From NCBI GenBank assembly GCA_947501805.1, contig CANMXJ010000005.1:1-64000 (forward strand): a DNA stretch of 64,000 nucleotides, in the 5' to 3' direction. A program made the position numbers and the translations under genes. Shown here piece after piece: positions 25,762 through 48,070 of this stretch. Positions within the stretch are counted from its first letter, which is position 1. Each line of letters opens with the position of its first letter. The notes under the pieces were generated by a model. It ran no database searches. It was not told the origin of the DNA and worked only from the letters and a program-made list of their open reading frames with translations. Source of the DNA: an uncultured Sulfitobacter sp. (GTDB lineage Bacteria; Pseudomonadota; Alphaproteobacteria; Rhodobacterales; Rhodobacteraceae).

Positions 25762-25776
25762 GCGACTCTGCAGTAG
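25762..25776 (+). promoter_or_regulatory. Candidate operator of the 26-51 kb regulon, site A
   Basis: GCGACTCTGCAGTAG matches all 15 positions of the consensus GCKACYMTRYAGTAK derived from four intergenic sites in this window. It lies 80 bases before the TPP-enzyme gene. The flanking base pattern is close to the site at 35310. No second copy at the 17-bp offset is visible here. Confidence 0.5.
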
Positions 25777-25855
25777 GTTGGTCTATGGGGGCAACCGGCG
25801 AAAATGACTGTCTTATGGCAGGAATTGCGGCGCAACAACTCAAAGCGAGATTGAT

Positions 25856-27529
25856 ATGACAGGCAATAAGGCGACAATTCGTGCTGCAGAGCTTTTGGTG
25901 CAGCAGTTGCAGTTGCACGGCGTTGATCGCGTCTTTTGCGTGCCGGGCGAAAGTTATCTGGCGGTTCTCGACGCGCTGGTAGATGCGCCCGAAATTCAGG
26001 TTGTGACCTGTCGCCACGAAGGATCTGCCGCCATGATGGGCGATGCCTATGGCAAGCTGACAGGCCGTCCGGGCGTTGTGTTTGTTACGCGCGGGCCGGG
26101 TGCCACGAATGCCTCTGCTGGCATCCATATTGCGCATCAGGATGGCACGCCGCTGATCGTATTTGTCGGCGATGTTGATCGCGGCGTGACTGAACGCGAC
26201 ACTTTTCAGGAAATTGACTATAGGGGTATGTTTGGGCCGATCACCAAGTTTGTCACACAGATCGCGGATGCGGCGCGTATTCCCGAAATGGTCGGACGCG
26301 CCTTTCACACAGCATTGGCCGGTCGGCCTGGTCCGGTGATGGTGACGCTGCATGAGGATATGTTGTTGGATCATGTCGAAGCGCGGCCCTCCCGACGTCT
26401 TGATCCAGTTGCGCCAACGCCGTCCCCGTCAGATCAGGCGGAATTGGCACGGCGGCTTTCTGCTGCGCAACGCCCGGTGCTGATACTGGGCGGCGGCGGG
26501 TGGAGTGCTCAGGCCGCGCTGGATGTCCGGCAATTTGCGGAAAACTGGGATATGCCGGTTGCCACAAGTTTCAGGTGTCAGGACTACATTGACAATACAG
26601 CGGATCAATACATCGGTAATCTTGGGCTCGGGGCCAATCCCGACCTGTTGCAGGCCGTAGAGAACGCTGACTTGGTCCTTCTGCTGGGGGGGCGTCTGGG
26701 GGAGGTATCCAGCAACGGGTACACACTGCTTGATATGCCTGCACCGGCACAGGACTTCATTCACATCCACCCGGATGCGCATGAGATCGGGCGGGTCTAT
26801 CAACCGACATTTGCGATCTGCGCGGGATCAACCCAGGTCGCTGCATGCCTTGCGAACCTGACTGCGCCAGCCGACAGGCCATGGTCGCGGCAAACCGCAA
26901 AGTTGAACGCGAGCCATCTGGCGTGGATTAGTCCGGTGCAGATACCGGGTGCCGTTCAGATGGGTGACGTCATGGCATCGCTTGGCAAGGCGCTGCCCGA
27001 GGATGCCATCCTGACCAATGGTGCGGGGAATTTTGCAATCTGGCCAAACCGGTTCCACCGCTATCGTGGCTATGGGACGATGCTGGCCCCAAGATCAGGG
27101 TCAATGGGATATGGCGTACCGGCCGCGATTGCGGCGAAATTGCAGTTTCCCGACAAGACCGTGATTTGTTTCGCGGGGGACGGTGATTTCTTGATGACCG
27201 GACAGGAACTGGCAACGGCAAAGATGTACGGTGTCGCGGTAATTGTGATCCTTCTGAACAACAGCATGTATGGCACGATCCGCATGCATCAGGAACGTGA
27301 TTTTCCTGAAAGGATCAGTGCAACCGAACTGGTCAATCCGGACTTTGTGATGCTTGCCAAGTCTTACGGGGCTGTCGCGCAGCGGGTGACTTCTACCGAA
27401 GAGTTTATGCCGGCTTTTGAACGGGCCCGCGAGAGTGGTGCGTCGGCGGTCATTGAAGTCGTGATGGACCAAGAGGCTATTTCACCTACGGCGACAGTTA
27501 CGTCACTTAGGCAGGCGGCACGCGCATGA
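25856..27529 (+). CDS. TPP-dependent acetolactate synthase-like enzyme
   Basis: A 557-residue enzyme of the ThDP family with three domains: the pyrimidine-binding domain with the activating Glu in CRHEGSAAMMGDAYG (about residue 51), a central Rossmann-like domain, and the cofactor domain with CFAGDGDFLMTGQE through LLNNSMYGT (GDG-N motif). Relatives include acetolactate synthase, benzoylformate decarboxylase, oxalyl-CoA decarboxylase and Xsc. No small regulatory ilvN-type gene is adjacent, so a housekeeping valine role is unlikely. The following gene is an FMN 2-hydroxyacid oxidase, which would make a 2-oxoacid that a TPP decarboxylase could use. Confidence 0.83.
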   Translation: MTGNKATIRAAELLVQQLQLHGVDRVFCVPGESYLAVLDALVDAPEIQVVTCRHEGSAAMMGDAYGKLTGRPGVVFVTRGPGATNASAGIHIAHQDGTPLIVFVGDVDRGVTERDTFQEIDYRGMFGPITKFVTQIADAARIPEMVGRAFHTALAGRPGPVMVTLHEDMLLDHVEARPSRRLDPVAPTPSPSDQAELARRLSAAQRPVLILGGGGWSAQAALDVRQFAENWDMPVATSFRCQDYIDNTADQYIGNLGLGANPDLLQAVENADLVLLLGGRLGEVSSNGYTLLDMPAPAQDFIHIHPDAHEIGRVYQPTFAICAGSTQVAACLANLTAPADRPWSRQTAKLNASHLAWISPVQIPGAVQMGDVMASLGKALPEDAILTNGAGNFAIWPNRFHRYRGYGTMLAPRSGSMGYGVPAAIAAKLQFPDKTVICFAGDGDFLMTGQELATAKMYGVAVIVILLNNSMYGTIRMHQERDFPERISATELVNPDFVMLAKSYGAVAQRVTSTEEFMPAFERARESGASAVIEVVMDQEAISPTATVTSLRQAARA

Positions 27530-27581
27530 CGTTCGGCAAATGGCGCAGGACGCAAGTGGTTCCAGAAAACTTGAGACAGCC

Positions 27582-28814
27582 ATGACCAACGATGCCCCAC
27601 CCGAACTGCCCGCCGCGAAAAAGATCACCCTGCCACCTGTGAGCGCACTTATGGCAAGGCGCATCAAGCGGGCCAGAAACATCGCAGACCTCAGGGAAGC
27701 CGCGCTGCGCCGTCTGCCGCGAGCGATTGGCGGCTTCGTTGATGGTGGCTCTGAGGACGAGGTGACGATGACACGCAATCGCGTGGCTTGGGCCGAACCA
27801 AGGTTCGCCCCCCGCATCCTGACGGATGTGACCGAAGTGGATCAATCTACAACCATTTTGGGGCAAAAGTGGGCGCATCCCTTTATGATCGGGCCCACGG
27901 GAGGCATCGGGTTTGTCTGGCCCAGAGGCGATGTTGCCCTTGCCAAAGCGGCGTCGGCATCCGGTGTTCCCTTTACCCTTTCGACAAGCGCAAACACGTC
28001 GATTGAAGACCTTCGCGCCTCCGTAGACGGGTCTCTGTGGTTCCAGTGCTATATCTTCAAACAACGCGATTTCAGCGATCGCCTCATCGCCCGCGCGCTG
28101 GCTGCAGGTTATGAAGCCCTTGTTATCACCGTTGACTTCCCTGTCGGCGGCAACCGTGAGCGGGACTACAAAAACGACTTTACCCTGCCGTTTCGCTATA
28201 CTCCCAAAATCGTCTGGGATTTTGCAACCCACCCCGGCTGGTCGATTTCTATTCTACGTAATGGCACGCCCGGCCTTGCCAACCTACATGGGTTTACAGC
28301 GTCAAATGACGTCTCTGAAGTCGCGTCCACGGTGGGCCGGAATTACGATGCGGGGTTTGACTGGGATGCCCTAGCGCGGATCAGGGACAGGTGGCCACGC
28401 AAACTTGTGGTCAAGGGTGTTGTGCGCGCTGATGATACCAAACGTCTGATTGATATGGGGGTGGATGCAATTGTTGTCTCCAACCATGGCGGTCGACAAC
28501 TGGATTCAGGAATTGCCACCTGCGACGCGCTACCCGTTGTTGTCGCCGCTGCAGCCGGGCGCGTGCCAGTCCTTGTGGATGGTGGCATCCGGCGCGGCAC
28601 TGATGTGGTCAAGGCGCTGGCTATGGGGGCAAAGGGCGTTTTGCTGGGACGTACAACGCTTTACGGTCTTGCGGCCGGAGGGTTTGAGGGCGTTGAACGT
28701 GCGCTAGATGTGATGAAGTCGGAAACAAAACGGACGATGCAGTTTTGTGGTGTCACCAAGATCGCTGACATCAAACCCGACTGCCTTGCGTCAGGTTCCG
28801 TGCACGGAAATTGA
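27582..28814 (+). CDS. FMN-dependent alpha-hydroxy-acid dehydrogenase/oxidase
   Basis: A 410-residue member of the LldD/glycolate oxidase/mandelate dehydrogenase family (TIM barrel with FMN). The active-site motif SNHGGRQLD with catalytic His and Arg is present near residue 304, preceded by KLVVKGVV (FMN Lys) and followed by VLVDGGIRRGTDVVKALAMG. It oxidises an (S)-2-hydroxyacid to the 2-oxoacid. The N-terminus VDGGSEDEVTMTRN is standard for the family. I chose ATG 27582; a longer frame overlaps the end of the upstream gene region without homology. It probably shares an operon with the TPP enzyme (52-base gap). Confidence 0.85.
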   Translation: MTNDAPPELPAAKKITLPPVSALMARRIKRARNIADLREAALRRLPRAIGGFVDGGSEDEVTMTRNRVAWAEPRFAPRILTDVTEVDQSTTILGQKWAHPFMIGPTGGIGFVWPRGDVALAKAASASGVPFTLSTSANTSIEDLRASVDGSLWFQCYIFKQRDFSDRLIARALAAGYEALVITVDFPVGGNRERDYKNDFTLPFRYTPKIVWDFATHPGWSISILRNGTPGLANLHGFTASNDVSEVASTVGRNYDAGFDWDALARIRDRWPRKLVVKGVVRADDTKRLIDMGVDAIVVSNHGGRQLDSGIATCDALPVVVAAAAGRVPVLVDGGIRRGTDVVKALAMGAKGVLLGRTTLYGLAAGGFEGVERALDVMKSETKRTMQFCGVTKIADIKPDCLASGSVHGN

Positions 28815-28944: not shown

Positions 28945-28991
28945 TTGACCGTAAAGCTACCAGATAGTAGGTATACTGTAGAGTAGCTTTA
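28945..28991 (+). promoter_or_regulatory. Promoter and double operator before the enolase-superfamily operon, site B
   Basis: A TTGACC -35-like hexamer (28945-28950) precedes two 15-bp elements: GCTACCAGATAGTAG at 28956-28970 and, on the opposite strand, GCTACTCTACAGTAT at 28973-28987. Their starts are 17 bp apart. The whole is bracketed by a perfect 9-bp inverted repeat TAAAGCTAC/GTAGCTTTA (28952-28960 and 28983-28991). The layout suggests two regulator dimers covering the promoter. Confidence 0.6.
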
Positions 28992-29055: not shown

Positions 29056-30279
29056 ATGCCGGACAAAGCGATTATCACCGACGTAAAGACGTTTTCATGC
29101 AGCAACTCCTGGCGGAATTACTATTTCCTGAAGATCACCACCAAAGACGGGATCACCGGCTGGAGTGAATTTGACCAGAACTTCGGCTCACCGGGGGTCG
29201 AGGCCGTTATCAATATGATTGGTCACCGGCTTATCGGTCAAAGCGCGATGAACCACGAACACATCCGAGAGGATTTACGCAACGTGACGCGCCCCGGTTC
29301 GGGCGGCGTTGTGGGACAGGCATTGGGGGCGATCGAAAATGCGTTGTTGGATGTGAAAGCCAAGACGCTTGAAGTGCCTGCCTACACGCTTTTGGGGGGT
29401 AAGATCCGCGACGAAATCCGTGTTTACTGGTCACATTGCGTTTCTTACCGAACACGGACCGAACACTTCTCCCCGCCGATCACCGATATTGAAGGGGTCA
29501 AACAGATTGCCGCTGAAGTGGGCGAGCGCGGCTTTACCGGCCTGAAGACAAACATCTTTGAATATGACGAGAACGACAAAATCACCAACTGGGCACCCGG
29601 CTTTGGCGCGCAGTTTGATCCGGCCCGCAACGTAGAGCGCAAGACACGTCAGAACCTGCGCCGTCATCTGGAAACCATGCGCGAAGCGGCCGGGCCTAAC
29701 ATCGACATCCTGCTGGACCTGAACTTTAACGCACGTACCGAAGGCTATATCGAAATCCTCCGCGAGATTGCGGACCTTGATCTGTTCTGGGTCGAGCTGG
29801 ATATTCTGGACTCTGATGCCATGGCGATGATCCGTGACAAGAGCCCGCATCCGATTGCGGGTCTCGAAACACTGATCGGACTGCACCAGTTCCTGCCGTT
29901 CTTCAAAGCCGGTGCTGTGGATGTTGCGATTGTGGATACGCCTTGGAACGGTGTGTGGCAGTCGATGAAAATTGCGGCTGCTGCCGATGCCTATGAGGTC
30001 AACGTGGCCTGCCACAACTTCTATGGTCATTTGTGCACTATGATGAATGCGCATTTCTGCGCTGCTGTTCCGAACTTGCGGATCATGGAGACGGATATCG
30101 ACCGCGTCTCGTGGGACAAGGATATCTTTACCCATGAGCCTGAGTTTAAGAACGGTCATTTGATCATTCCGGATCGTCCCGGCTGGGGCACAGAGCCGAT
30201 CGAAGAGGCGTTGTTGGATCACCCGCCGGTGGAGATGAACATGTATAACCGCGTTCCAGTGAACCGCGTCATTACCTGA
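29056..30279 (+). CDS. Mandelate racemase/muconate lactonizing-family (enolase superfamily) enzyme
   Basis: A 407-residue enolase-superfamily protein with capping domain (about 1-130) and TIM barrel. Likely residues: Lys in TGLKTNIF (about 163), metal ligands Asp in LLDLNFNA (about 220), Glu in FWVELD (about 245) and Glu in AGLETL (about 270), and His in ACHNFYGH (about 318). This fits the MR subgroup, which abstracts a proton alpha to a carboxylate; most members are sugar-acid dehydratases. ATG 29056 has GAGGA upstream. It is the first gene of an operon with a GMC oxidoreductase and a sugar-type ABC importer. The substrate is unknown. Confidence 0.85.
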   Translation: MPDKAIITDVKTFSCSNSWRNYYFLKITTKDGITGWSEFDQNFGSPGVEAVINMIGHRLIGQSAMNHEHIREDLRNVTRPGSGGVVGQALGAIENALLDVKAKTLEVPAYTLLGGKIRDEIRVYWSHCVSYRTRTEHFSPPITDIEGVKQIAAEVGERGFTGLKTNIFEYDENDKITNWAPGFGAQFDPARNVERKTRQNLRRHLETMREAAGPNIDILLDLNFNARTEGYIEILREIADLDLFWVELDILDSDAMAMIRDKSPHPIAGLETLIGLHQFLPFFKAGAVDVAIVDTPWNGVWQSMKIAAAADAYEVNVACHNFYGHLCTMMNAHFCAAVPNLRIMETDIDRVSWDKDIFTHEPEFKNGHLIIPDRPGWGTEPIEEALLDHPPVEMNMYNRVPVNRVIT

Positions 30280-30311
30280 TTTCCACCCAGAGCAGTCCGG
30301 AGGGTTATTTT

Positions 30312-31919
30312 ATGGCAGAAATGAACGAACCTGTGGACGTATTGATCATCGGCGGCGGCGCATCCGGTGCCGCCGTCGCCTGGAGCCTTGCCGAGACGAA
30401 GATGCATATCGTCTGTCTTGAGCAGGGCGACTGGATCAAGAACGAGGGTTTTCCAAGCACCGGACGCGATTGGGAAGCGCGCCAGTTTGGCGATTTCGCG
30501 ATCAGCCCGAACCGGCGCAAGCTGGAGGCGGATTATCCGATCAACGAAGATAACTCCCCGATCAAAGTCGCGAACTTTAACGGGGTCGGGGGCGGTACAA
30601 TCCTTTATGCGGGTCACTTCCCGCGCTTTCACCCCTCTGATTTCAAAGTGAAAACACTGGATGATGTCGCTGATGACTGGCCTATTGATTATGCCACGCT
30701 AGAGCCGTTTTTCGAGTTGAACGACAAGATGACAGGGGTTGCCGCCCTTGCTGGTGATCCCGCCTATCCATCCAAGCCCGCCGTCATGCCGCCCCTGCCG
30801 ATGGGGCGTTCCTGCGAGGTGATCGGCGAGGCGATGAACAAGCTGGGCTGGCACTGGTGGCCGTCTGACGCCGCGATCAACACGCAGGAATACGAGGGGC
30901 GTGCACCCTGTATCAATCTGGGTCATTGCGGGTCCGGTTGTGCGCAGGGGGCCAAGGCCACCACCGATGGCACCTACTGGCCTGAAGCGATCCGCGCGCG
31001 GGTCGAACTGCGCCACCGCTGCCGCGTGCGCCGGATCGAGACGAACGAAGACGACATGGCAACCGGTGCCTATTACGTCGATCCTGACGGGGTCGAGCGG
31101 TTTCAACCCGCCGAGATCGTGATTGTCGCCTGCAACGGCGTCGGCACGCCGCGCCTGTTGTTGAACTCTGCCTCCGAACGCTTCCCTGATGGTCTGTGCA
31201 ATTCCAGCCGGATGGTGGGCAAGAATCTGATGTTCCACCCTTATTCCCAAGTTCGTGGCCATGTGGATGAAAAACTGGAAGGCTACAAGGGCCCCCGCAT
31301 CGGCACGTGGAGCATGGAATTTTACGAGACCGACCCGAAGCGCGGTTTCAAACGTGGCTATTGTTATCAGTTCTCGCGGGGCTATGGCCCGGTTGCGACC
31401 GCCGTAAACGGCATGGCTGACGGGATCATCCCCTGGGGGGCCGGGCACCATGAAGCCTTTGGCCGGATGTTCGATCATTCCTTGGGGATGCTGGCGATTT
31501 GCGAGGACCTGCCCGAAGAGATCAACCGCGTCACCATTGACCCGCATCTAACCGACAGCGACGGCATTCCCGCGCCTAGGATCACCTACCGTTTGAGCGA
31601 AAACTCCAAACGCATGCTGGATCATTCCGTGGCACGCGGCAAAGAGATTTTGCAAGCGGCAGGGGCGCGTGACATCACGCACAAGACGATCTTTCCGGGT
31701 GCAGGCTGGCACCTGATGGGCACCGCACGCATGGGGACGGACCCCAAGACCTCTGTCGTCAACGAATGGGGGCGCAGCCATGATGTGCGCAATCTGTTCA
31801 TCGTGGACGGCAGTGTCTTCGTGACTTCGGGCGGTGTGAACCCGACCTCAACGATACAAGCGATTGCGCTTTACGTCGCCGACCAGATCAAGAACCGCAT
31901 CTATGAATTGTTTGATTGA
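30312..31919 (+). CDS. GMC-family FAD oxidoreductase
   Basis: A 535-residue flavoprotein with the dinucleotide-binding motif IIGGGASGAA (about residues 12-21) and the C-terminal GMC active site: GAGWHLMGTARMG (His about 467) and GGVNPTSTIQAIAL (Asn about 510). It is closest in layout to the gluconate 2-dehydrogenase/sorbitol dehydrogenase flavoprotein branch rather than choline dehydrogenase. A cluster of cysteines near NLGHCGSGCAQGAK is also typical of that branch. The next gene encodes a subunit-3-like protein, so the two probably form a membrane- or cytochrome-linked dehydrogenase of an alcohol or sugar. No Tat signal is visible on either protein. Confidence 0.87.
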   Translation: MAEMNEPVDVLIIGGGASGAAVAWSLAETKMHIVCLEQGDWIKNEGFPSTGRDWEARQFGDFAISPNRRKLEADYPINEDNSPIKVANFNGVGGGTILYAGHFPRFHPSDFKVKTLDDVADDWPIDYATLEPFFELNDKMTGVAALAGDPAYPSKPAVMPPLPMGRSCEVIGEAMNKLGWHWWPSDAAINTQEYEGRAPCINLGHCGSGCAQGAKATTDGTYWPEAIRARVELRHRCRVRRIETNEDDMATGAYYVDPDGVERFQPAEIVIVACNGVGTPRLLLNSASERFPDGLCNSSRMVGKNLMFHPYSQVRGHVDEKLEGYKGPRIGTWSMEFYETDPKRGFKRGYCYQFSRGYGPVATAVNGMADGIIPWGAGHHEAFGRMFDHSLGMLAICEDLPEEINRVTIDPHLTDSDGIPAPRITYRLSENSKRMLDHSVARGKEILQAAGARDITHKTIFPGAGWHLMGTARMGTDPKTSVVNEWGRSHDVRNLFIVDGSVFVTSGGVNPTSTIQAIALYVADQIKNRIYELFD

Positions 31920-31922
31920 ACC

Positions 31923-32381
31923 ATGAGTGACCTGACACCCAACACATCCGAGTATTTCAGCGCTGTTAAGCGCGAGGTCATGCGCCTTGTTGCCGGGGCC
32001 ATCATCCCGGCGGACCCCGCGCGGGATATGCCGGGCGCAGATGATCCGGCGATCCTTGATGACATCCTCGCCTCCGCGGGCCGTGATGCGGATGATCTTG
32101 CCCGCGCATTGGACATTCTGGGCGCAGAGGGTGCACAGATTACCGATGCTTCCCTAGCACGGTTCCGCGACGATCACCCGGCACTGGCGGGCGTTCTCTC
32201 TCTGGTCATTGCGCAGTGTTATTACCGCGATGATCGCGTTTTGGTGGCCATCGGCATGGAACCACGTGCGCCGTTCCCCAAGGGCTATGAGGTGGCACAG
32301 GGCGACTGGTCGCTGCTTGATCCGGTGCGCGCGCGCGGCCCGATCTACCGCGATGTCCCGCAAGAAGGAACAGACACATGA
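31923..32381 (+). CDS. Small partner resembling gluconate 2-dehydrogenase subunit 3
   Basis: A 152-residue mostly helical protein. The segment LVAGAIIPADPARDMPGADD matches the start of the mature gluconate 2-dehydrogenase gamma subunit family, in which the small subunit binds the FAD-containing GMC subunit. Unlike classical gamma subunits it has no twin-arginine signal peptide, so the complex may stay in the cytoplasm. It begins three bases after the GMC stop and overlaps the following permease gene by ATGA. Family assignment is by pattern and is less certain than that of the neighbours. Confidence 0.65.
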   Translation: MSDLTPNTSEYFSAVKREVMRLVAGAIIPADPARDMPGADDPAILDDILASAGRDADDLARALDILGAEGAQITDASLARFRDDHPALAGVLSLVIAQCYYRDDRVLVAIGMEPRAPFPKGYEVAQGDWSLLDPVRARGPIYRDVPQEGTDT

Positions 32382-33292
32382 GCAAGGATACATCCAAAGC
32401 CCCCCGTCGCGGGCGCACGCAATGGGGTGATCTCGCCGTCAGGTGGAGCTTTATGCTGCCCACCATCGTGCTGCTGATCCTCGTTCTGGCCTATCCCATT
32501 TGGTACACGATCGAGATCAGCTTTTCCTCGTTCGACATGATGACATTCGGTGCCGGCGAATGGGTCGGATGGGAAAACTACGCCTGGGTGGTGGATGACT
32601 ACCGCTTTTGGGAATCCCTTTGGGTGACGCTGGTCTATTTGATCTGGGCGCTGCCCATTCAGATCATCCTCGGCTTCGGAATTGCCTATATGATCAACGC
32701 GCCATGGCGTGGGCGCGGACTGCTGCGGGCGCTGTTCATCATTCCGATGGTGGTGGCCCCCGTTGTTGCCGGTGGCATTTGGCGTATGCTGCTGGATCCG
32801 ATCTGGGGTGTGATCAACTGGGTTTTCGGTTTGGTGGGGCTGGGGCCATTCGACTGGTTCGGGGATCCCAATCTGGCGATGGCGACGATTGTCATCATCG
32901 ACACATGGCGCTGGACCCCCTTCATTGTGCTGATCGCGACGGCCGCCTTGCTGGCCCTGCCGCGTGACGTGTTCGAGGCAGCCAAGATTGATGGTGCTGG
33001 CCGCTGGGCGACGCTTTGGTCCGTGGCGCTGCCGCTGCTGGCCCCGGTGATTGCGGCGACTTTCGTGATCCGCTGGCTGGGCGCGGTCAAGATGTTCGAC
33101 ATCGTTCTGGCCTCGACCCTTGGCGGGCCGGGCAAATCCACCAGCGTGATCAATCTGTTCATCTATGAGGAAGCCTTCCGCTCGCTCAACTTCGCAGAAT
33201 CTGCGGCGATGGCGATGATCGTTCTTGTCCTCACGATGCTTTTGACAGGTGTGTTCCTGATCGGCAGCCGCAAACTGGAGACAATGCATTGA
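32378..33292 (+). CDS. Sugar-type ABC importer permease (MalF/UgpA family)
   Basis: A 304-residue inner-membrane protein with about six helices and the EAA loop DVFEAAKIDGAGRWATLWSV (about residues 197-216). The family imports sugars, sugar alcohols and glycerophosphodiesters. It overlaps both the upstream small subunit gene (ATGA) and the downstream permease gene (TTGA), so expression of oxidoreductase and importer is tightly linked. Confidence 0.92.
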   Translation: MSKDTSKAPRRGRTQWGDLAVRWSFMLPTIVLLILVLAYPIWYTIEISFSSFDMMTFGAGEWVGWENYAWVVDDYRFWESLWVTLVYLIWALPIQIILGFGIAYMINAPWRGRGLLRALFIIPMVVAPVVAGGIWRMLLDPIWGVINWVFGLVGLGPFDWFGDPNLAMATIVIIDTWRWTPFIVLIATAALLALPRDVFEAAKIDGAGRWATLWSVALPLLAPVIAATFVIRWLGAVKMFDIVLASTLGGPGKSTSVINLFIYEEAFRSLNFAESAAMAMIVLVLTMLLTGVFLIGSRKLETMH

Positions 33293-39436: not shown

Positions 39437-40078
39437 ATGGCCAAGACAACAACAAAAGACGCAGCCACAAGACGCGCTGCCCGAAAGGCGGAAAACCACG
39501 GGGCAAAGCGCGCGCGGATTTTGGAGGTTGCCGGAGAGATGTTCTACCGGCAGGGCTATGGCAACACGAGCATTGATGAGATTGCGGCCGAACTGGGCGT
39601 CGGCAAGCCGTTTATTTATTACTATTTCCGCGACAAGCTGACCATTCTTGAAACCCTTTGTGTTGAATCGTCCAATGTGACCCACAAGGCCTTTGAGGCC
39701 ACGCGCGATGCCGACCTCTCGCCGCCAGAGCGGCTGTCTCGTGGATTGAACGAACTGATCTTGCGGTATTTGCAGACCTTTGCCGGTGGCGCACTTTACT
39801 ATAAAGAGCCCGGACTTTTGCAGGGTGAAGCAAAGGAAACCGTGCGCAAGAACGCGCTGGTGCTGCATGCGGACCTTTTGCAGGTGCTTGAGGACGGGCG
39901 CGCGTCCGGTGATTTCCAATTCGTGGATACCAGGCTGACGGCTTTGATGATCGGTGGGTCAATCGGGTTCATGTTCACCTGGTATCGCCCCGATAGCAAA
40001 ATGAAGCCGAAAGAACTGGCGCAACATATGGTCGCCCATTTGATGAAGATCGTTTCCGTTCCGGAAGCGGCAGCCTGA
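39437..40078 (+). CDS. TetR/AcrR-family regulator
   Basis: A 213-residue regulator. The N-terminus is basic (KDAATRRAARKAENHGAKRA), followed by a TetR helix-turn-helix at about residues 28-72 (MFYRQGYGNTSIDEIAAELG, then VGKPFIYYYFRDK), and a helical ligand domain. It is the only transcription factor gene between 25.8 and 51.3 kb and lies where plus- and minus-strand catabolic operons converge. I infer that it binds the 15-bp palindromes at 25762, 28956, 35310 and 48056, probably with an acyl-CoA as inducer, as for other TetR proteins in beta-oxidation clusters. No copy of the element is visible before its own gene. A CGGAGG ribosome site precedes ATG 39437. Confidence 0.88.
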   Translation: MAKTTTKDAATRRAARKAENHGAKRARILEVAGEMFYRQGYGNTSIDEIAAELGVGKPFIYYYFRDKLTILETLCVESSNVTHKAFEATRDADLSPPERLSRGLNELILRYLQTFAGGALYYKEPGLLQGEAKETVRKNALVLHADLLQVLEDGRASGDFQFVDTRLTALMIGGSIGFMFTWYRPDSKMKPKELAQHMVAHLMKIVSVPEAAA

Positions 40079-40101: not shown

Positions 40102-40986
40102 CTACGCGGTGATTTCGGCGTAGCCGTTTGATAGAATGGACTGGCCCTGACTGTCTACAACCTCGAAATGCACCTGCTGCGGTCCGCCCTCCGCCTGCTG
40201 TGTGCGGTGCCGCATGAACAGCGATGTGCCAACCAGCGCCTTGCCCGTCATCCGCGCACCCAGCCGTGTCAACCGCGCCGGATCACCATCTGCGAACTCA
40301 CGCACAATCTGCAAGCCCGCCGCACCCCAGCTGCAGGAACCGTGCAGGATCGTATCCTCCAAACCGGCATCCTGCGCCGCCGTGCGTTCCGTATGGATCG
40401 GATTCCAGATATCCGCAGCTTCGGTATAAAGATGCGGCAGCGCACGCGTGACCTCCAACATCGTCGTTTCATCGGTGGTGAAATCATCGCCCAGGGCAAC
40501 GGGGGCAGGGGGTTCGGCAATGCTGCGATCTGGGCCTTCGACCTTGTCGCCCAGAAAGATGCCGCAGAACCAGCTTTCCGCCAAAGCCGTATCGGTTTTT
40601 GTCTCGGAGGTGGTCAACCGCACGGCGATATAGGCCCCGATGCGGGTCTGGCGCAGCACACAAATCTTGCCACGTGTGGTGACATGCACATCGGGGCGCA
40701 GCGGTTTGAAGACGGTTGAATCCTGTTGAACGTGGATGCAGCGCCACATCTGCGCATTGTCCGCGCCCAGCACGTTTCGATAAGGCGCGCCGTTCATCAC
40801 CTGCCATTCTGGCGAGATCACATAAGTGGGCAAGCCGATGATCCCGCCTGTCCGGAGGTCATTGAGATATACATCCTCGGTCGCGCCAAGGGACGCGGTA
40901 TAGCTCATCAGCCGCCGCGCGGTCATATGGGTTTGCGCTGGTGTGATATCGGTGCCGACAATGTCGGAGTTCAACAGATTGTCCAT
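40102..40986 (-). CDS. MaoC-like hotdog hydratase
   Basis: A 294-residue protein with two tandem hotdog folds, as in MaoC-like (R)-specific enoyl-CoA hydratases. The second half has ADIWNPIHTERTAAQDAG followed by ILHGSCSWGAAGLQIV, matching the hydratase motif in which an Asp/Asn-His pair and HGxxSW segment bind the thioester. The first half is degenerate. It would hydrate an enoyl-CoA made by the nearby dehydrogenases. It is the last gene of the minus-strand operon, convergent with tetR. An 8-bp inverted repeat GGCTACGC/GCGTAGCC (40100-40125) spans its stop codon. Confidence 0.75.
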   Translation of the reverse strand: MDNLLNSDIVGTDITPAQTHMTARRLMSYTASLGATEDVYLNDLRTGGIIGLPTYVISPEWQVMNGAPYRNVLGADNAQMWRCIHVQQDSTVFKPLRPDVHVTTRGKICVLRQTRIGAYIAVRLTTSETKTDTALAESWFCGIFLGDKVEGPDRSIAEPPAPVALGDDFTTDETTMLEVTRALPHLYTEAADIWNPIHTERTAAQDAGLEDTILHGSCSWGAAGLQIVREFADGDPARLTRLGARMTGKALVGTSLFMRHRTQQAEGGPQQVHFEVVDSQGQSILSNGYAEITA

Positions 40987-41001
40987 GTGCTTGCCCTCTA
41001 A

Positions 41002-41772
41002 TCAGCGGCCTTTGAAAAATGCATCCAAGGCGTCGCCATGGGCGTCCGTTGCCTGACACACGGCATATTGCTCCAGATCCATGAAGCTGACCGCGTGGTT
41101 CAGCGCATTTGCGGCCTGACCGATGGCGTGTTTGGTCATCCGCAAGGGTGCGCCCGGAATTTCAAGCAGACGATGGGCCAGCTTTTCCGCCTCTGTGCGT
41201 GCTGCGCCTGCGGTGGATACCTCATCCACCATGCCCCAGCTTTCGGCTTTGGTCGCGCCGATATTCTCGGCCAGCATCACCAGTTTGCGGGTCCGTGCAG
41301 GGCCGACCAATGACACCAGACGTGGCAGGCTTTGCCAGCTCATGCTCATGCCGTTCAGCAGTTCCGGCGCGCCGAGCACCGTATCGCTTGCGGCAACGCG
41401 GAAATCGCAGACCACGCTAAAGGCCAGCCCCCCGCCAAGGCAATAGCCCTCGATGGCACATACCGTCACTGCGTCCAGCGCCTCCCATGCGGCGCAGGCG
41501 CGTGCGCCGATGGCGTGGATGGCGAGGCGCTGTTCGGTGGTCAGATCGCGGTATCCTTTTACCTCGTCCTGTTTCAGGTTCATGCCCGCTGAGAAATGGC
41601 TGTCAGAGCCGCAAACGACGACGGCACGGATCGCCGGATCGCTTTGGATTTGGTTTGCCACTCCCCAGAGTTCGTGCAGCATTGCATAGGACATCAGATT
41701 GTATTTCCCAGCACCTTTCAGACGCACAATGGCCAGATCGGTTTGGGGGCGGGTTAGTTCGATGTGCTCCAT
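41002..41772 (-). CDS. Enoyl-CoA hydratase/isomerase (crotonase family)
   Basis: A 256-residue crotonase-fold protein. The oxyanion-hole segments are present: HFSAGMNLKQ (about residues 59-68) and IEGYCLGGGLAFSVVCDFRV (about 101-120). Of the usual two catalytic glutamates, the position in the second helix pair reads GAPELLNGMSMSW, with Glu present. The preferred start is ATG 41772 with AAGGA upstream; a longer frame from 41802 overlaps nothing but lacks homology. It sits between ligase and MaoC genes in the minus-strand beta-oxidation operon. Confidence 0.87.
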   Translation of the reverse strand: MEHIELTRPQTDLAIVRLKGAGKYNLMSYAMLHELWGVANQIQSDPAIRAVVVCGSDSHFSAGMNLKQDEVKGYRDLTTEQRLAIHAIGARACAAWEALDAVTVCAIEGYCLGGGLAFSVVCDFRVAASDTVLGAPELLNGMSMSWQSLPRLVSLVGPARTRKLVMLAENIGATKAESWGMVDEVSTAGAARTEAEKLAHRLLEIPGAPLRMTKHAIGQAANALNHAVSFMDLEQYAVCQATDAHGDALDAFFKGR

Positions 41773-41804
41773 CGTCGGTTTCCTTGTATCAGGGGCAGGC
41801 AAGA

Positions 41805-43457
41805 TCAGGTGGCGGTGCTTTCCACTTTGGCAAACCTGTCGCGCAACTTGTTCTTGAGCACCTTACCCGTTGGGCCAAGGTCGATTGTATCTACAAAATG
41901 GATGTCGTCGGGCATCCACCATTTCGCAATTCGATCTTCCAAAAAGGCCAGTAGATCATCTTTGCTGATTTCAGCTTCGGCGCGGGCGATGACCACCAGA
42001 ACCGGCCGCTCGCCCCATTTTGGATGCGGGATGCCAATACAGGCCGCCTGATGCACATCCTCGTGCAGCTGCGCAATATTTTCGACCTCGATCGAACTGA
42101 TCCATTCGTCACCCGATTTGATGATATCCTTACTGCGATCCATGATCTTGATATAGCCTTGGGAATTGATCGTAACCACATCCCCCGTAGGTAACCAACC
42201 GTCTTCCAAGGCGCTGCCCACTGGATGCTTGAAGTATGAATCAATCACCCATGGGCCTTTCACAAACAGGTTGCCAGTGGTTTTGCCATCCCATGGCAAT
42301 TCAACGCCCTGATCATCCAGCAGCAACATATCAACGCCAAAGACCGGATGTCCCTGGGTTTCGCGCAGTGTTTGTATGTCGGCCTCGGGGAGATCGGCAT
42401 GGCGGCCCTGCAGGGTACAGATCGTGCCCATAGGCGACATTTCGGTCATTCCCCAAGCGTGGATCACGTCGACGCCATGGGTGTGACGGAAAGTGTTCAT
42501 CATCGCGGTCGGACAGGCGGAACCGCCGATGTTCATGCGTTTGAACGTGGTAAAGCTCAGCTCACGCGCCTTGATATAGTCCAGCAACCCGTTCCAGACC
42601 GTCGGCACACCAGCAGAGAAGGTGACGCCTTCACCGTCAATCAATTCATACAATGATTTGCCATCCATCATCGGACCCGGCAACACCAGTTTCGCGCCCG
42701 CAAGCGCAGAGGCATAGGGCAATCCCCATGCGTTTGAGTGATACATCGGCACCACCGGCATGATCACGTCACGCGATGAAATGTTGAACGCGTCCGGCAT
42801 GACCTCTGCATAGGAGTGGATCATCGTGGAGCGGTGGGAATAGAGCACGCCCTTGGGGTTGCCCGTGGTGCCGGAGGTATAGCACAGCGCCGATGCAGCG
42901 GTTTCGTCAAATTCAGGCCAGCCGTAGGTGTCGGAAGCTGCCGCGATGAAGTCCTCGTAGCAGATCAGGTTTGAAATGCTGGTTCGTTCTGGCATCTCTG
43001 AGGCTGCGCACATGGCGACAAAGGTTGCAGCGCCGGGGCACTGGGCGGCAATCGCTTCGGCCTGTTCCAGAAAGGACAGATCGAACAGCACGCATTTCGC
43101 CTCGGCATGATCCGCGATGTAGGTGATCTGGTCAGCATGCAGGCGCGGGTTGATGGTGTTCAGAACCAGCCCAGAGCCGGGAATAGCAAAATATGCCTCA
43201 AAGTGGCGGTAGTTGTTCCAACCCAGCGTCGCGACCCTGTCCCCGATGCTCAGGCCCAGCTGTGCCAACGCATTTGCAAGCCGTTGCGCGCGGGCGTGAC
43301 AATCGCCGTAGGTATAGCGATGAACAGTTCCGTCACTCATCCGCGAGACGATTTCAACATCACTGAAATAGCGGGCAGCATTCTTGATAAGACTGGAGAT
43401 CAAAAGGGGGCGGTTCATTGTCCGCCCCGAAATTGGGCTTTGTACATAGTCAGACAT
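41805..43457 (-). CDS. AMP-forming acyl-CoA ligase
   Basis: A 550-residue ANL-superfamily ligase of the medium/long-chain type. It has P-loop CYTSGTTGNPKGVLYSH (about residue 190), AWGMTEMSPMG (about 340), the WLPTGDVVTINSQGYIKIMD segment and a C-terminal GPTGKVLKNKLRDRF with the catalytic Lys. The DEWISSIEVEN hinge motif is typical of DitJ/AlkK-like medium-chain ligases. A longer frame from 43490 has no homology, so ATG 43457 is used. It would activate the acid produced by the oxidoreductase and aldehyde dehydrogenase steps. Confidence 0.88.
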   Translation of the reverse strand: MSDYVQSPISGRTMNRPLLISSLIKNAARYFSDVEIVSRMSDGTVHRYTYGDCHARAQRLANALAQLGLSIGDRVATLGWNNYRHFEAYFAIPGSGLVLNTINPRLHADQITYIADHAEAKCVLFDLSFLEQAEAIAAQCPGAATFVAMCAASEMPERTSISNLICYEDFIAAASDTYGWPEFDETAASALCYTSGTTGNPKGVLYSHRSTMIHSYAEVMPDAFNISSRDVIMPVVPMYHSNAWGLPYASALAGAKLVLPGPMMDGKSLYELIDGEGVTFSAGVPTVWNGLLDYIKARELSFTTFKRMNIGGSACPTAMMNTFRHTHGVDVIHAWGMTEMSPMGTICTLQGRHADLPEADIQTLRETQGHPVFGVDMLLLDDQGVELPWDGKTTGNLFVKGPWVIDSYFKHPVGSALEDGWLPTGDVVTINSQGYIKIMDRSKDIIKSGDEWISSIEVENIAQLHEDVHQAACIGIPHPKWGERPVLVVIARAEAEISKDDLLAFLEDRIAKWWMPDDIHFVDTIDLGPTGKVLKNKLRDRFAKVESTAT

Positions 43458-43480
43458 TATCAGGCTTCCCTCACGGCTGG

Positions 43481-43514
43481 TTTGCGGCAAGGCAGGGTCG
43501 TGCCATGCCGCAAA
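43481..43514. repeat. Long inverted repeat between aldehyde dehydrogenase and ligase genes
   Basis: TTTGCGGCA-A-GGCA, a 6-base loop, then TGCC-A-TGCCGCAAA: 13 base pairs with one A-A mismatch. It lies between two minus-strand genes of the same operon, leaving 21 bases after the upstream stop codon. There is no T-run on either side, so it looks like an mRNA processing or stabilising hairpin rather than a terminator. Confidence 0.6.
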
Positions 43515-43535
43515 GATCGTTTTACGTGTCCGGTA

Positions 43536-44975
43536 TCAGTCGTTGCACCAACCGGAAACGGCTTTGACCTCGCAGAAATCCTCGATGCCCCATATGCCGC
43601 CTTCGCGCCCGTTGCCTGATTGTTTCATACCGCCAAAGGGTGATCCGGCCCCTCGGGACTCACCGTTCATTTCCACCATGCCAGAGCGCAGTTGCGTCGC
43701 CAGGCGATTGCGGCGTGCACCGTCCTGTGTCTGGACATAGTTGGTCAGGCCATAGACCGTGTCGTTTGCAATTTCGACGGCCTGCTCTTCGTTGTCGAAT
43801 TTCATGATCGACAGGACAGGGCCAAAGATTTCCTCGCGTGCGATGGTCATGTCCGGCGTTACATCTGCAAAAACGGTTGGTTTGACATAGAAACCGCGGT
43901 TCAGACCTTCGGGACGCCCGGTGCCGCCAGCAACCAGTTTTGCGCCCTCATCAATGCCTTTCTGGATCAGGTCCTGAATTTTGCCCCATTGGCTTTCGTT
44001 CACAACCGGACCGATGTGGCGACCTTCTTCGCTGGCCGGACCGACCGTGATGCCAGAGGCGATTTCACCCGCACTCTCGACAGCTGCGTCATAAGCGCTT
44101 GCCTCGACAATCATACGGCTCGGGGCGTTACAGCTTTGGCCCGAGTTGTTCATCATCGACAATACACCGCGTTTAACGGCCTTTTCGTCCGCATCGGCAA
44201 AGATCAGGTTCGCACCCTTCCCGCCCAACTCCAAGTGGACCTTCTTGAGCGTATCCGCCGCGTTCTTGGAGATCGCGATGCCTGCACGGGTGGAGCCGGT
44301 AAAGCTGACCATATCGACATCCACGTGTCCGGTCAGCGCTGTGCCAACGCCCATGCCGTCACCATTTACCAGATTGAATACACCGGCGGGGAAACCCGCC
44401 TCGTCCATCATTTCGGCAAACAGGACCGCACTCAGGGGGCTTTCCTCGGACGGTTTCAGTACCATTGTGCAGCCCGCAACCACCGCTGCACCAACCTTGA
44501 GTGTGACCTGGTTCATCGGCCAGTTCCACGGCGTGATCATTGCCACCACACCTACCGCTTCGTGGATGATGCGATCATTTGGTGCGTGATCCCCCAACGG
44601 TTTGATAAACTCGAAACCTTTTGCTGCATTAATGAAGGTCTTGATATGGCTATAGCCTGCTCCCCACTGCGCGGAACGCGCAAGGGTGATGGGGGCGCCC
44701 ATTTCGGTGCTGATCGCCTGCGCCATTTCTTCAGCGCGTGCTTTGTAGATTTCCGCCAGTTTTTCCAGCAGCGCGATACGCTCTGACGGCGGTGTGGCCA
44801 TCCAGCCGGGCAATGCCTTTTTTGCAGCAGCCACTGCTGTGTCTACGTCGCCCTGTGCGCCCAGTGAAATCACGGCACATGGCTCTTCGGTAGAGGGGTT
44901 GATGACGTGATAGTCGTTGGTCTGCATCGGTGCGACCCACGTGCCATCAATGTAGAAATCACGTTTCTCGATCAT
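43536..44975 (-). CDS. NAD(P)-dependent aldehyde dehydrogenase
   Basis: A 479-residue ALDH-superfamily enzyme. Landmarks are ITPWNWPMNQVTLKVGAAVV (about residues 142-161), the Glu motif LELGGKGANLIF (about 249) and the catalytic Cys in NNSGQSCNAPSRM (about 283), then EEIFGPVLSIMKF near 380. The Cys context is that of broad-specificity aldehyde dehydrogenases. In this operon it most likely oxidises the aldehyde made from the imported alcohol by the GMC or iron alcohol dehydrogenase, giving the acid for the next-door ligase. Confidence 0.9.
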   Translation of the reverse strand: MIEKRDFYIDGTWVAPMQTNDYHVINPSTEEPCAVISLGAQGDVDTAVAAAKKALPGWMATPPSERIALLEKLAEIYKARAEEMAQAISTEMGAPITLARSAQWGAGYSHIKTFINAAKGFEFIKPLGDHAPNDRIIHEAVGVVAMITPWNWPMNQVTLKVGAAVVAGCTMVLKPSEESPLSAVLFAEMMDEAGFPAGVFNLVNGDGMGVGTALTGHVDVDMVSFTGSTRAGIAISKNAADTLKKVHLELGGKGANLIFADADEKAVKRGVLSMMNNSGQSCNAPSRMIVEASAYDAAVESAGEIASGITVGPASEEGRHIGPVVNESQWGKIQDLIQKGIDEGAKLVAGGTGRPEGLNRGFYVKPTVFADVTPDMTIAREEIFGPVLSIMKFDNEEQAVEIANDTVYGLTNYVQTQDGARRNRLATQLRSGMVEMNGESRGAGSPFGGMKQSGNGREGGIWGIEDFCEVKAVSGWCND

Positions 44976-45048
44976 GTTCGTATCTCCGTATTTCTGATTG
45001 GATTGTTGTCCGGAATTTCAGCTTAGCAGGTTGCCGCCAGTCCCACAC

Positions 45049-45864
45049 TCACTTGCCCGAAAAGTTTGGTGCCCGCTTTTCCTGAAAATGTGCAACACCT
45101 TCGGTGAAGTCCTCGCTTTGGATGCTTAGAAACATTTCTTCGTTGGCCATTGTGATGGCTTCGCCCAGCGATTGATACGGCGCTTCCCAGACCTGCCGTT
45201 TCATGATCCGCACGGAGCGGGGCGAGACTTCTTTCGACAGCTTGGTCGCCAGCGCGCGCGCCTCTTCCATCAAGGCATCCGGTTCAACCACGCGGTGAAC
45301 CAGCCCCATCGACAGGGCTTCATCCGCTTTCACCTTGCGCGAGGTCAGCAGCATGTCCATCGCATGGGCATGACCAACGACACGGGGCAGGATCCAGCTG
45401 ATCCCGTGTTCCGCGATCAACCCGCGCATGACAAAGGCGGTGACAAAGGCCGCCTTGTCCGATGCAATGCGGAAATCACTGTAAAGCGCGAAGATCAGGC
45501 CAAGACCCGCCGCCGCACCGTTGATGGCCGAGATCACGGGCTTGGACACACCCGGAAAATAAGAATAACGCGCCTGATAATCGGCGCGGCGGTTCATGTC
45601 ATAGGGGCGCATCCATTCGCGTGCGCTGATGTCATCGGGCGGCAGCACCTCAAGTTCGTCCATGTCCATGCCTGCACAGAAGGCACGGCCATTTCCGGTC
45701 AGGATGATCGCGCGCACGTTGTCATCCAGATCGGCGGCACGCATGGCGTCATACAACTCGCCCTCCAACACCTTGGTCAGTGCGTTCATCCGGTCAGGCC
45801 GGTTAAATGTGATGATCGCGGTATGCCCGTCAACGTCGTAGGTGATCTCTTTGTAACTCATCAT
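45049..45864 (-). CDS. Enoyl-CoA hydratase/isomerase (crotonase family)
   Basis: A 271-residue crotonase-fold protein with NGRAFCAGMDMDELEVL (about residues 58-74) and INGAAAGLGLIFALYSDFRI (about 113-132). The second-Glu region reads MRGLIAEHGISWILPRVVG, which is the typical LVPEGG-like helix start with Glu retained. It is distinct from the other crotonase at 41002. It lies 21 bases downstream of the fadB-like gene. The start could be either of two adjacent ATGs (MMSYKEITYD). Confidence 0.87.
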   Translation of the reverse strand: MMSYKEITYDVDGHTAIITFNRPDRMNALTKVLEGELYDAMRAADLDDNVRAIILTGNGRAFCAGMDMDELEVLPPDDISAREWMRPYDMNRRADYQARYSYFPGVSKPVISAINGAAAGLGLIFALYSDFRIASDKAAFVTAFVMRGLIAEHGISWILPRVVGHAHAMDMLLTSRKVKADEALSMGLVHRVVEPDALMEEARALATKLSKEVSPRSVRIMKRQVWEAPYQSLGEAITMANEEMFLSIQSEDFTEGVAHFQEKRAPNFSGK

Positions 45865-45885
45865 ATCTCTCCAGAAATTAGTGTA

Positions 45886-48018
45886 TCAAACCGCTTCAGG
45901 AAGGCGTTCGTCCGCTCGGCCCTCTGCGTCAGCAAGCCGCTGCAAAAGCGGGGCAGGGGTGAAAAAATCGAAGCGGTCTTGCGTTTGTTGTCCCAACCCG
46001 ATCAGGCGATCACGCAACTTGGTCAGACCGATGGTTTGTGCCAGGTGCATCGGTCCGCCCGTCAGTGCAGGCCAGCCGTATCCAGCGGTCCAGACCACGT
46101 CGATATCAGCTTCACGGTAAGCGATGCCTTCTTCCATGATCTTGAAGCCTTCGTTGATCAGGGGATAAAGCAGGCGGTCACAAATTTCCGCATCCGTAAT
46201 GTCATTGCGCCGCCGGATGCCAAACTCCGCTGCCAGATCGGCAGCGATCTGGTTCACCTCCGGATCGTCGACAGGTGTGCGCCCGTCATAGCGATAGTAC
46301 CCCTTGCCCGCTTTCTGCCCGTTGCGTCCCAATGCGCCCAGCTTGCGGACCAGCGCGCGATAGGACGGGGTATCAGGCAATGCGCCTTCGGCCTCGCGGC
46401 CATCCAGCACAAAGGCGTTCACATCGACGCCCGCCATGTCCATCATCCGGCAAGGCCCCATCGCCATGCCGAACCCTTCCAGTGCTGCGTCCAGCTGTGC
46501 GGGCGTGGCCCCTTCCATCAGCAGATAGTCCATCTCGCGCAGATAGCTTTCCAGCATCCGGTTGCCGATGAAGCCGTAGCAAACACCGGAGACAACTGCG
46601 ACCTTGTTGATCCGGCGGGCAAGCTGCATCGCCGTGGCCAGGACGTCAGGCGCGGTTTTTGCGCCGCGCACGACTTCTAGAAGGCGCATGATATGGGCCG
46701 GACTGAAAAAGTGCATGCCCAGCACATCATCCGGTCGTCCGGTCGCCTCGGCTATGATGTCTACATCCAGCGTTGAGGTGTTGGTCGCGATGATCGCACC
46801 GGGTTTACAGACTTCACCCAGCTTGGCACAAACATCCTGCTTGATCTTCATATTCTCGAAAACCGCTTCGATCACCAGATCGCGGTCGGCCATATCCGCG
46901 TAATCGGTAGAGCCTTTGAGCAGCCCCATGCGTCTGTCCATCTGCGCCAGTGTCATGCGGCCCTTTTCGACGTTACCGGCAAAGGTGCGGCGGATGTTCT
47001 CGATCCCCCGGTCCAGCGCATCCTGCGCGATTTCGAGGACCGTAACCGGCATGTCCGCATTCAGGAAGTTCATTGCAATGCCACCGCCCATAGTGCCTGC
47101 GCCAATGATGCCGACACATTCAATCGGGCGCAGGGGCAATTCTTTGTCCAAATTTGGGATTTTAACAGCGGCTTTTTCGGCAAAGAACAGGTGGCGTAGC
47201 GCCTTGGATTGTGTGCCGTTCATCAGCTCCAGAAACTCTTTGCGTTCAAAGATCAACCTATCTTCGAAACTGGCGTCAGATGCGGCAAATTCGATACAGC
47301 GTGCAATTGCCTTGGGTGCATGCGCATTTGGTGTCCGCCTCAACACTTTGGCCAGCGTAGCGGAAATGGTATCTTTTGCATTGGCTGCGTCTTTTACCGG
47401 CAGGGCGCGCGCGGTGCGCAGCCCGTCAGCACGGTCCTTGGCGTCCAATGCAAAAGTGATCGCTTCCTTCAGCAAATCATCTTGGGCCACCGCGTCGATC
47501 AATCCGCATTCAAGCGCCTCGCTTGCGCCAATCATCCGCCCGCTCAGGATCAGGTCCGACGCAACCGGAACACCCACCAGACGCGGCGTGCGCTGTGTGC
47601 CGCCACCGCCAGGCAAGACGCCCAACGTTACTTCTGGAAACCCCATTTGCGCATCGTGCGCAGCAATACGGTGATGACAGCCCAAGGCCAGTTCCATACC
47701 CCCGCCAAGCGCATATCCGTGGATTGCAGCAACAACGGGTTTGCCCAGCGTTTCGATCAAGGCGCAGACAATGTTGAGGTCCGGTTCGGTGATTTCGCCA
47801 GCCGCGAATTCCTTGATATCAGCACCGCCGCAGAACATTTTCCCCGCGCCGGTTATGACGACGGCATCAACGGCCGCATCGGCTTTTGCTTGATGCAATG
47901 CCTCTTGGATGCCAGCGCGCAAGGGTTGCGACAACCCGTTAACTGGCGGGGCATTCAGCGTAACAATCGCAACGCGATCACGTATCGCATACTTCGCAAG
48001 CGTACCTGTAGCAGCCAT
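45886..48018 (-). CDS. fadJ: Bifunctional enoyl-CoA hydratase / 3-hydroxyacyl-CoA dehydrogenase
   Basis: A 710-residue multifunctional beta-oxidation enzyme. Residues 1 to about 190 form a crotonase domain (IHGYALGGGMELALGCHHRI), about 295-480 the NAD-binding domain (GIIGAGTMGGGIAMNF at about 302) and about 485-700 the C-terminal helical domains (GFIGNRMLESYLREMDYLLM, then a second half). The shorter crotonase domain and total length fit the peroxisomal-type/FadJ-like form common in alphaproteobacteria. No thiolase gene is found nearby. It is the first gene of the minus-strand operon, under the divergent promoter with the site at 48056. The symbol is approximate. Confidence 0.88.
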   Translation of the reverse strand: MAATGTLAKYAIRDRVAIVTLNAPPVNGLSQPLRAGIQEALHQAKADAAVDAVVITGAGKMFCGGADIKEFAAGEITEPDLNIVCALIETLGKPVVAAIHGYALGGGMELALGCHHRIAAHDAQMGFPEVTLGVLPGGGGTQRTPRLVGVPVASDLILSGRMIGASEALECGLIDAVAQDDLLKEAITFALDAKDRADGLRTARALPVKDAANAKDTISATLAKVLRRTPNAHAPKAIARCIEFAASDASFEDRLIFERKEFLELMNGTQSKALRHLFFAEKAAVKIPNLDKELPLRPIECVGIIGAGTMGGGIAMNFLNADMPVTVLEIAQDALDRGIENIRRTFAGNVEKGRMTLAQMDRRMGLLKGSTDYADMADRDLVIEAVFENMKIKQDVCAKLGEVCKPGAIIATNTSTLDVDIIAEATGRPDDVLGMHFFSPAHIMRLLEVVRGAKTAPDVLATAMQLARRINKVAVVSGVCYGFIGNRMLESYLREMDYLLMEGATPAQLDAALEGFGMAMGPCRMMDMAGVDVNAFVLDGREAEGALPDTPSYRALVRKLGALGRNGQKAGKGYYRYDGRTPVDDPEVNQIAADLAAEFGIRRRNDITDAEICDRLLYPLINEGFKIMEEGIAYREADIDVVWTAGYGWPALTGGPMHLAQTIGLTKLRDRLIGLGQQTQDRFDFFTPAPLLQRLADAEGRADERLPEAV

Positions 48019-48038
48019 GTTCCATCCCCGCTAAAAAT

Positions 48039-48070
48039 AAAACTTTCCAGTAGATGCTACCATGTAGTAG
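48039..48070. promoter_or_regulatory. Candidate operator in the divergent fadJ-like / acyl-CoA synthetase promoter, site D
   Basis: GCTACCATGTAGTAG at 48056-48070 is a full match to the 15-bp consensus. A weaker copy, AAAACTTTCCAGTAG (10 of 15), starts exactly 17 bp before it at 48039. The pair lies 21-52 bases before the minus-strand gene and about 170 bases before the plus-strand ligase start, so it could control both directions. Confidence 0.55.

Follow-up and report, generated by a model that had tools for sequence, protein, structure and literature searches.

A conserved, mostly doubled palindrome marks an apparently undescribed candidate TetR regulon in a Sulfitobacter catabolic cluster

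Four catabolic operons of an uncultured Sulfitobacter sp. are preceded by copies of one short palindrome, and the question raised by this locus is which regulator, if any, reads it. The locus lies in a 64,000-bp stretch of DNA (assembly GCA_947501805.1, contig CANMXJ010000005.1, positions 1 to 64,000), hereafter called the window, to which all coordinates without a contig or locus label refer. What the copies have in common is a palindrome of 14 bp, CTACY-N4-RGTAG (CTACYNNNNRGTAG), with nearly uninformative central four bases and weakly informative flanks in a matrix of its sites. Judged from sequence, the element is very probably the operator of the TetR-family regulator encoded at 39437, paired dimers of which would block the four operons until a coenzyme A (CoA) thioester of the pathway releases the repressor. 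This is apparently a real, conserved and local TetR regulon with tandem operators, undescribed under the spellings and words that were searched.

An earlier note on this DNA had described a 15-bp near-palindrome in seven copies, and all seven were recovered where it had placed them; the palindrome stands, while the conserved length is 14 bp. Ranked by a symmetric matrix built from 30 sites of other genomes only, the seven copies take places 1 to 7 in the window with scores from 21.4 to 12.6, where 0.08 matches scoring at least 12 are expected per 64 kb, although this test is not wholly independent since the pattern used to find those 30 sites came from the window. The copies are predicted operators, listed here without strand. 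A single one (25763-25776; rank 4, score 15.9) lies upstream of the operon for a thiamine diphosphate (TPP)-dependent enzyme and a flavin mononucleotide (FMN)-dependent dehydrogenase. Before the MR_MLE-GMC-ABC operon (ABC, ATP-binding cassette), the copy at 28957-28970 (an exact CTACYNNNNRGTAG, rank 1, kept in two Sulfitobacter) is followed by a conserved one at 28973-28986 (rank 5) in a 16-bp doublet pattern. Upstream of the solute-binding-protein gene stand a copy at 35311-35324 (rank 6) and an exact match at 35328-35341 (rank 3), both conserved, and before the FadJ-like operon a weak copy at 48040-48053 (rank 7, conserved in locus L032 of Sulfitobacter F26169L) and a strong, exact one at 48057-48070 (rank 2); this operon is divergent with the gene of an adenosine monophosphate (AMP)-ligase. 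The pair offset, previously given as exactly 17 bp throughout, is 17 bp at 35311/35328 and 48040/48057 and 16 bp from centre to centre at 28957/28973, where the reverse copy had been measured by its other end.

The element is also found when no consensus is supplied. In an unsupervised count, which is independent of the window-derived pattern, the 256 four-base words were each paired with their own reverse complement at gaps of 0 to 16 bases, giving 4,352 tests. CTAC-N6-GTAG was the top word in the window (4 seen, 0.07 expected, p = 1.2e-6) and again in six relatives' loci with the window excluded (14 seen, 0.25 expected, p = 2.6e-20); it was outside the top six words listed for the control loci L092, L071 and L073 and for two betaproteobacterial loci, in which TACC-N4-GGTA ranked third (3 seen, 0.04 expected). 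A scan of the genome, proposed in the earlier note as a check, finds the exact element nearly confined to this cluster: the cluster holds 3 of the 4 exact copies of CTACYNNNNRGTAG in the own genome (4.56 Mb), all 4 in Sulfitobacter F26169L and 4 of 5 in an uncultured Sulfitobacter.

Comparison with orthologous clusters, the second check proposed there, showed that the element is kept in them. TetR orthologues (69-82%) are present in four other records, two of Sulfitobacter, a plasmid of Roseovarius pelagicus and a plasmid of Paracoccus jeotgali. The comparison rests on five clusters because the orthologue searches gave few loci: at E 1e-45 TetR was found in 1 of 394 genomes of the family, its own (with at most 7 candidates scored per genome). 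Among 61 genomes from the genus to which the Sulfitobacter genome G394 belongs, two had it at E 1e-50, both at loci already known, and two further copies lie on plasmids. The whole cluster is very patchily distributed. Common to all four relatives are the acyl-CoA dehydrogenase pair, TetR, the CoA ligase, the enoyl-CoA hydratases and the FadJ-like genes. The motif precedes the acyl-CoA dehydrogenase operon in four of four relatives and the FadJ operon likewise, and it is also found before transporter or upper-pathway genes. The transporters themselves vary, with a sugar ABC and a tripartite ATP-independent periplasmic (TRAP) transporter in Sulfitobacter (TRAP domains were checked in L032 only), another ABC transporter together with a 2-oxoglutarate (2OG)-oxygenase in Roseovarius, and a branched-chain amino-acid ABC transporter in Paracoccus. 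In the Sulfitobacter pair, the binding protein is separated from the acyl-CoA dehydrogenases by extra genes (the TRAP transporter in L032) and then an operator doublet; in Roseovarius and Paracoccus, too, an operator is placed before the acyl-CoA dehydrogenases.

The spacing of the doublets is narrowly distributed. Around 25 strong sites of the window and its relatives, a second site scoring at least 8 lies at offset 16 (8 cases), 17 (10), 27 (2) or 14 (1), and offsets 14 to 35 are otherwise empty. Both cases at 27, which is about one helical turn above 16-17, belong to the Roseovarius pair. The -35-like TTGAC hexamers previously reported 4 and 6 bases before two of the sites are indeed present, as TTGACA (35301-35306, plus strand), 4 bp before its doublet, and TTGACC (28945-28950, plus strand), 6 bp before the other. 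Both boxes are invariant in all three aligned promoters (the window and both Sulfitobacter relatives), and so are most half-site bases of the doublets at 28957 and 35311. These two doublets extend across the expected -10 region, and a good -10 match was found at neither. The doublet of the FadJ-like operon is located 22-52 bp before the FadJ-like start; its 48057 copy retains the CTAC and GTAG half-sites in all five aligned loci, in a region with only 21 invariant columns.

From this arrangement we infer that every CTACY-N4-RGTAG palindrome is the binding site of a TetR dimer, and that on most promoters two dimers sit side by side, 16-17 bp apart, from just past the -35 box to beyond the -10. 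Bound TetR would block transcription of the four operons, whose products would serve the uptake of a carboxylic compound, its activation to a CoA thioester and a beta-oxidation-like degradation, and a CoA-thioester intermediate of the pathway may then release the repressor; this guess at the ligand is based on the fold neighbours of TetR, on the parallel with MbdR (see below) and on the presence of a CoA ligase among the core genes of the cluster. An unlikely variant is that TetR acts as an activator or co-regulator, or that one dimer spans both halves of a doublet by way of the inner GTAG-N3-CTAC. In its favor are sites that overlap the -35 box instead of merely following it, and the enrichment of GTAG-N3-CTAC in the relatives (5 seen, 0.25 expected), an enrichment which is due to the 17-bp doubling. 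Against it stand a palindrome that stays intact as the spacing varies among 16, 17 and 27 bp, and the existence of lone palindromes (25763, Roseovarius 17345 and the Pseudacidovorax loci), which makes CTAC-N6-GTAG the unit.

The earlier proposal of a TetR regulon is supported by the motif kept before orthologous operons, by homologues from Betaproteobacteria and by a control genome, G137. The latter has a homologous binding-protein/enolase/GMC/ABC operon (enolase 72%) and a TetR match of 29-30% at best, and no matrix match above 4 precedes its binding-protein gene or its enolase gene. Nine further TetR loci, with 31-37% identity over the matched part, were found in Curvibacter, six Pseudacidovorax, Bradyrhizobium and a spirochaete. 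In seven of these, the one of Curvibacter and the six of Pseudacidovorax (closely related, and hence not independent of each other), the highest-scoring matrix match in the locus is 41-150 bp upstream of the point where the TetR match begins; the putative operators are CTACCCAAAGGTAG plus ATACCGTCAGGTAG in Curvibacter and CTACCGATGGGTAG in Pseudacidovorax. The best match of Bradyrhizobium, ATACCCGCGGGTAT (score 9.6), lies upstream of the adjacent binding-protein open reading frame (ORF), 93 bp from its start, and the spirochaete locus has no matrix match near TetR. With putative operators at such distant TetR loci, the code follows a TetR subfamily and does not depend on which other genes the window contains.

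Genome G325 had to be abandoned as a TetR-less control. Its enolase (72%) follows an ABC ATPase and a GntR-like gene within a 4.8-kb contig on which no operon promoter is certain, and its match of score 10.3 sits in the GntR-like coding stretch (a frame judged GntR-like by eye). Locus L096 of G137 (contig C43) may add another member to the operator subfamily: a 30% TetR homologue there is accompanied by ATACTAACTGGTAT (ATACT-AACT-GGTAT; 1424-1437, score 16.9), located 77 bp ahead of the TetR match, and by a weaker copy (9.6) at 2231. Palindromes of the same class also precede or adjoin CoA-ligase genes at L078:3244-3257, L034:9939-9973 and L040:10638-10651 (Paracoccus, Curvibacter, Bradyrhizobium), where a fused biotin carboxylase/carboxyltransferase (1,091-1,114 residues) is linked to these genes.

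The distant loci also bear on a second regulator. The earlier note had named tetR as the only regulator gene of the block, which holds for the Pfam-scanned ORFs within it; just outside, a gene of the RpiR family (23577-24425) had been overlooked. RpiR proteins also bind TA-rich palindromes, and this one, at the head of the first module, could bind the sites: its gene is 1.3 kb upstream of the first of them, three of the four marked operons lie downstream on the same strand, and a weak eighth copy of the element stands before it. We nevertheless consider this very improbable and reject RpiR as the binder, since a search at E 1e-20 of eight cluster loci from the four relatives gave no match to it, and the Sulfitobacter genomes G394 and G395 have only a 34% homologue, which in G395 is on another contig and in G394 on the contig of the sites, some 17 kb away from the first; the distant TetR loci, moreover, have the motif in their own promoters. 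The own genome, G000, also has a 34% RpiR paralogue on another contig. The possible eighth copy just upstream of rpiR (23541-23554, without strand; matrix score 11.1, at a level where 0.38 matches are expected per 64 kb) is a weaker palindrome in which the CTAC and GTAG halves are both intact; it could add the RpiR/glutamine-synthetase-like pair to the regulon or may be due to chance.

That the intergenic sequences resemble each other by chance or as a repeat family has a negligible probability, as the chance-level count of loose matches to the earlier 15-mer (21 in the window with at most 3 mismatches, against 17.0 +/- 3.8 in shuffles, 17 of 100 of which reach 21) and genome-wide totals below those of a backward control are outweighed by the word counts in the window and in the relatives, the promoter position, the conservation and the clustering of exact copies. 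Loose matches at chance level are uninformative, so that the element had to be tested in other ways. A 17-bp doublet pattern with 3 mismatches was likewise discarded as too loose (own-genome counts 15/18 versus 40/37 for controls). Unlinked members of the regulon were sought at eleven other one-mismatch places whose locus was read (L004-L006 and L009-L016; scores 8.1-13.8), for example C18:73687, close to an acyl-CoA dehydrogenase, and C8:142821, flanked by two acyl-CoA genes, and none is claimed because the null expects 0.38 matches of at least 11 per 64 kb, or about 27 per genome.

Besides the partial dependence of the matrix, and a proline discussed with DarR below, several observations weigh against TetR as the reader of these sites. 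The totals of exact copies are not high, with 4, 4 and 5 against 16, 5 and 21 matches of the backward control pattern, so that it is the clustering which is unusual and not the number. One exact copy lies elsewhere in the own genome, at C10:18897, outside an evident promoter. The Curvibacter pair, which is outside the set of 25 sites, is 21 bp apart and thus off the 16/17/27 phasing. Six of the seven remote TetR-like loci (25-30%; G137 and G325) have no matrix match above 7.1, so that no more than a subfamily can share the code. The 25763 site has no orthologous promoter in the relatives' loci searched, leaving no comparison possible; the TPP/FMN operon behind it has no close homologue there (L073 has a 44% match to the TPP enzyme), and its single site looks like a local recruitment. 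Finally, the acyl-CoA dehydrogenase-tetR genes of the window have no operator of their own: the 225-bp gap before them (36762-36986) contains neither the operator that all four relatives have at this junction nor the TRAP transporter of Sulfitobacter F26169L. Autoregulation of tetR in the window would therefore need read-through from 35415, and the gene may depend on the promoter at 35301 or on an unmarked one.

The gene content of the four operons is as follows. Operon 1 (25856-28814, plus strand) encodes the TPP-dependent enzyme (25856) and an FMN-dependent 2-hydroxyacid dehydrogenase (27540). Operon 2 (29056-35287, plus strand), with a gene order identical in two Sulfitobacter, comprises an enolase-superfamily enzyme (closest solved relative 2oo6), a GMC oxidoreductase, a small protein without Pfam match, and the two permeases and the ATPase of a sugar-type ABC transporter. 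Operon 3 (35415-40078, plus strand) comprises a sugar-type solute-binding protein, two acyl-CoA dehydrogenases (the start of the first taken as 36987) and tetR, which would form one transcript. Operon 4 (40102-48018, minus strand) encodes the FadJ-like protein, an enoyl-CoA hydratase, an aldehyde dehydrogenase, the CoA ligase (41808-43490), a further enoyl-CoA hydratase and a MaoC hydratase; it is largely kept in the four relatives, with Roseovarius lacking close matches to MaoC and the aldehyde dehydrogenase. Loci L032, L074 and L075 have a thiolase gene between the enoyl-CoA hydratase and the FadJ-like gene, and none is present in the window (45864-45886) or in L033. Divergent from operon 4, the AMP-ligase and an iron (Fe)-alcohol dehydrogenase (48095-51224, plus strand), which L032/L071 (Sulfitobacter F26169L) keep beside the site, are possible members of the regulon. 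The ligase barely exceeds the cut-off for 3-(methylthio)propionyl-CoA ligase (827.8 versus 822), which was not taken as proof, and the substrate is not deducible from the protein domains of the cluster.

In the literature searched, the CTAC...GTAG motif was not found in the spellings tried, and a search with regulator and pathway words yielded no paper recognised by title or abstract start as dealing with this regulon; PMC9736018, PMC5343134 and PMC545781 concern, in the excerpts available, other motifs or regulators. For this rare catabolic island of the Rhodobacterales, the regulon supplies a regulator together with its operator and its list of targets, it suggests which genes work together, and its repressor offers a handle on the catabolic substrate; the five clusters, in addition, illustrate in compact form how a regulon can exchange its transporters and yet retain the operator. 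A broader proposal, for and against which we see the balance as even, is that an undescribed TetR subfamily of the Alpha- and Betaproteobacteria keeps the operator code MTACY-N4-RGTAK, whereas the transporters and enzymes that surround the CoA-ligase core of its regulon are exchanged. The code would usually be doubled, in the Rhodobacterales with a helical phase of 16-17 or 27 bp, and operators would be recruited before new modules (the TPP/FMN operon, ABC, TRAP and 2OG-oxygenase genes) as the island moves on plasmids and other replicons.

The proposed binder (39437-40078, plus strand) belongs to the TetR/AcrR family by its Pfam domains TetR_N (PF00440, 8.2e-14) and TetR_C_24 (PF17932, 4.4e-18), both above cut-off, and a palindromic operator in its putative target promoters is provided by the conserved 14-bp palindrome before the four operons. 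Its predicted model is all-helical (mean predicted local distance difference test score, pLDDT, of 86.7), with Foldseek template modelling (TM) scores, query-normalised, of 0.58-0.79 to PfmR, KstR2, AibR and FadR, as for an acyl-CoA-repressor fold; the structural neighbours include AibR with isovaleryl-CoA and FadR with stearoyl-CoA. PfmR, KstR2, AibR and the Bacillus FadR are among the folds closest to the model, at only 20-24% identity, and their operators differ from the one described here.

DarR is as close in fold as these acyl-CoA repressors (Foldseek rank 6) and is similar in sequence (E 1.7e-10). According to excerpts of PMC10636190, this mycobacterial/rhodococcal TetR-family repressor has the operator ATACT-N4-AGTAT, two of its dimers overlap on one 20-bp site, its Lys44 contacts the G opposite the C in T-x-C, and its Gly45 is essential. 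The two systems share the TetR fold and the operator core TACT-N4-AGTA, and the recognition-helix Lys44 of DarR aligns with Lys57 here, which is invariant in all ten aligned TetR sequences; the two dimers per DarR operator in that source are paralleled here by two separate 14-bp palindromes 16-17 bp apart, the predicted dimer sites. They differ in the outer operator base (A in DarR, mostly C here), in the regulon, and in that DarR senses cyclic adenine nucleotides. The position of Gly45 is a proline in ten of ten aligned homologues, and for this reason the regulator was not filed as DarR.

A functional parallel may be MbdR of Azoarcus sp. CIB, described in excerpts of PMC4424350 as a TetR repressor of 3-methylbenzoate degradation with 3-methylbenzoyl-CoA as ligand and several operators overlapping the -10/-35 boxes, predicted ones being located before its own gene. 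Similarity to MbdR (E 9.7e-9) covers the helix-turn-helix (HTH) region, the only region aligned. As far as those excerpts go, MbdR acts on another pathway, and its half-sites (ATACN10GTAT) are 10 bp apart as opposed to 6 here; with the proposed regulon it has in common that it is a local repressor of a CoA-dependent catabolic cluster and that its half-sites are of the TAC/GTA type.

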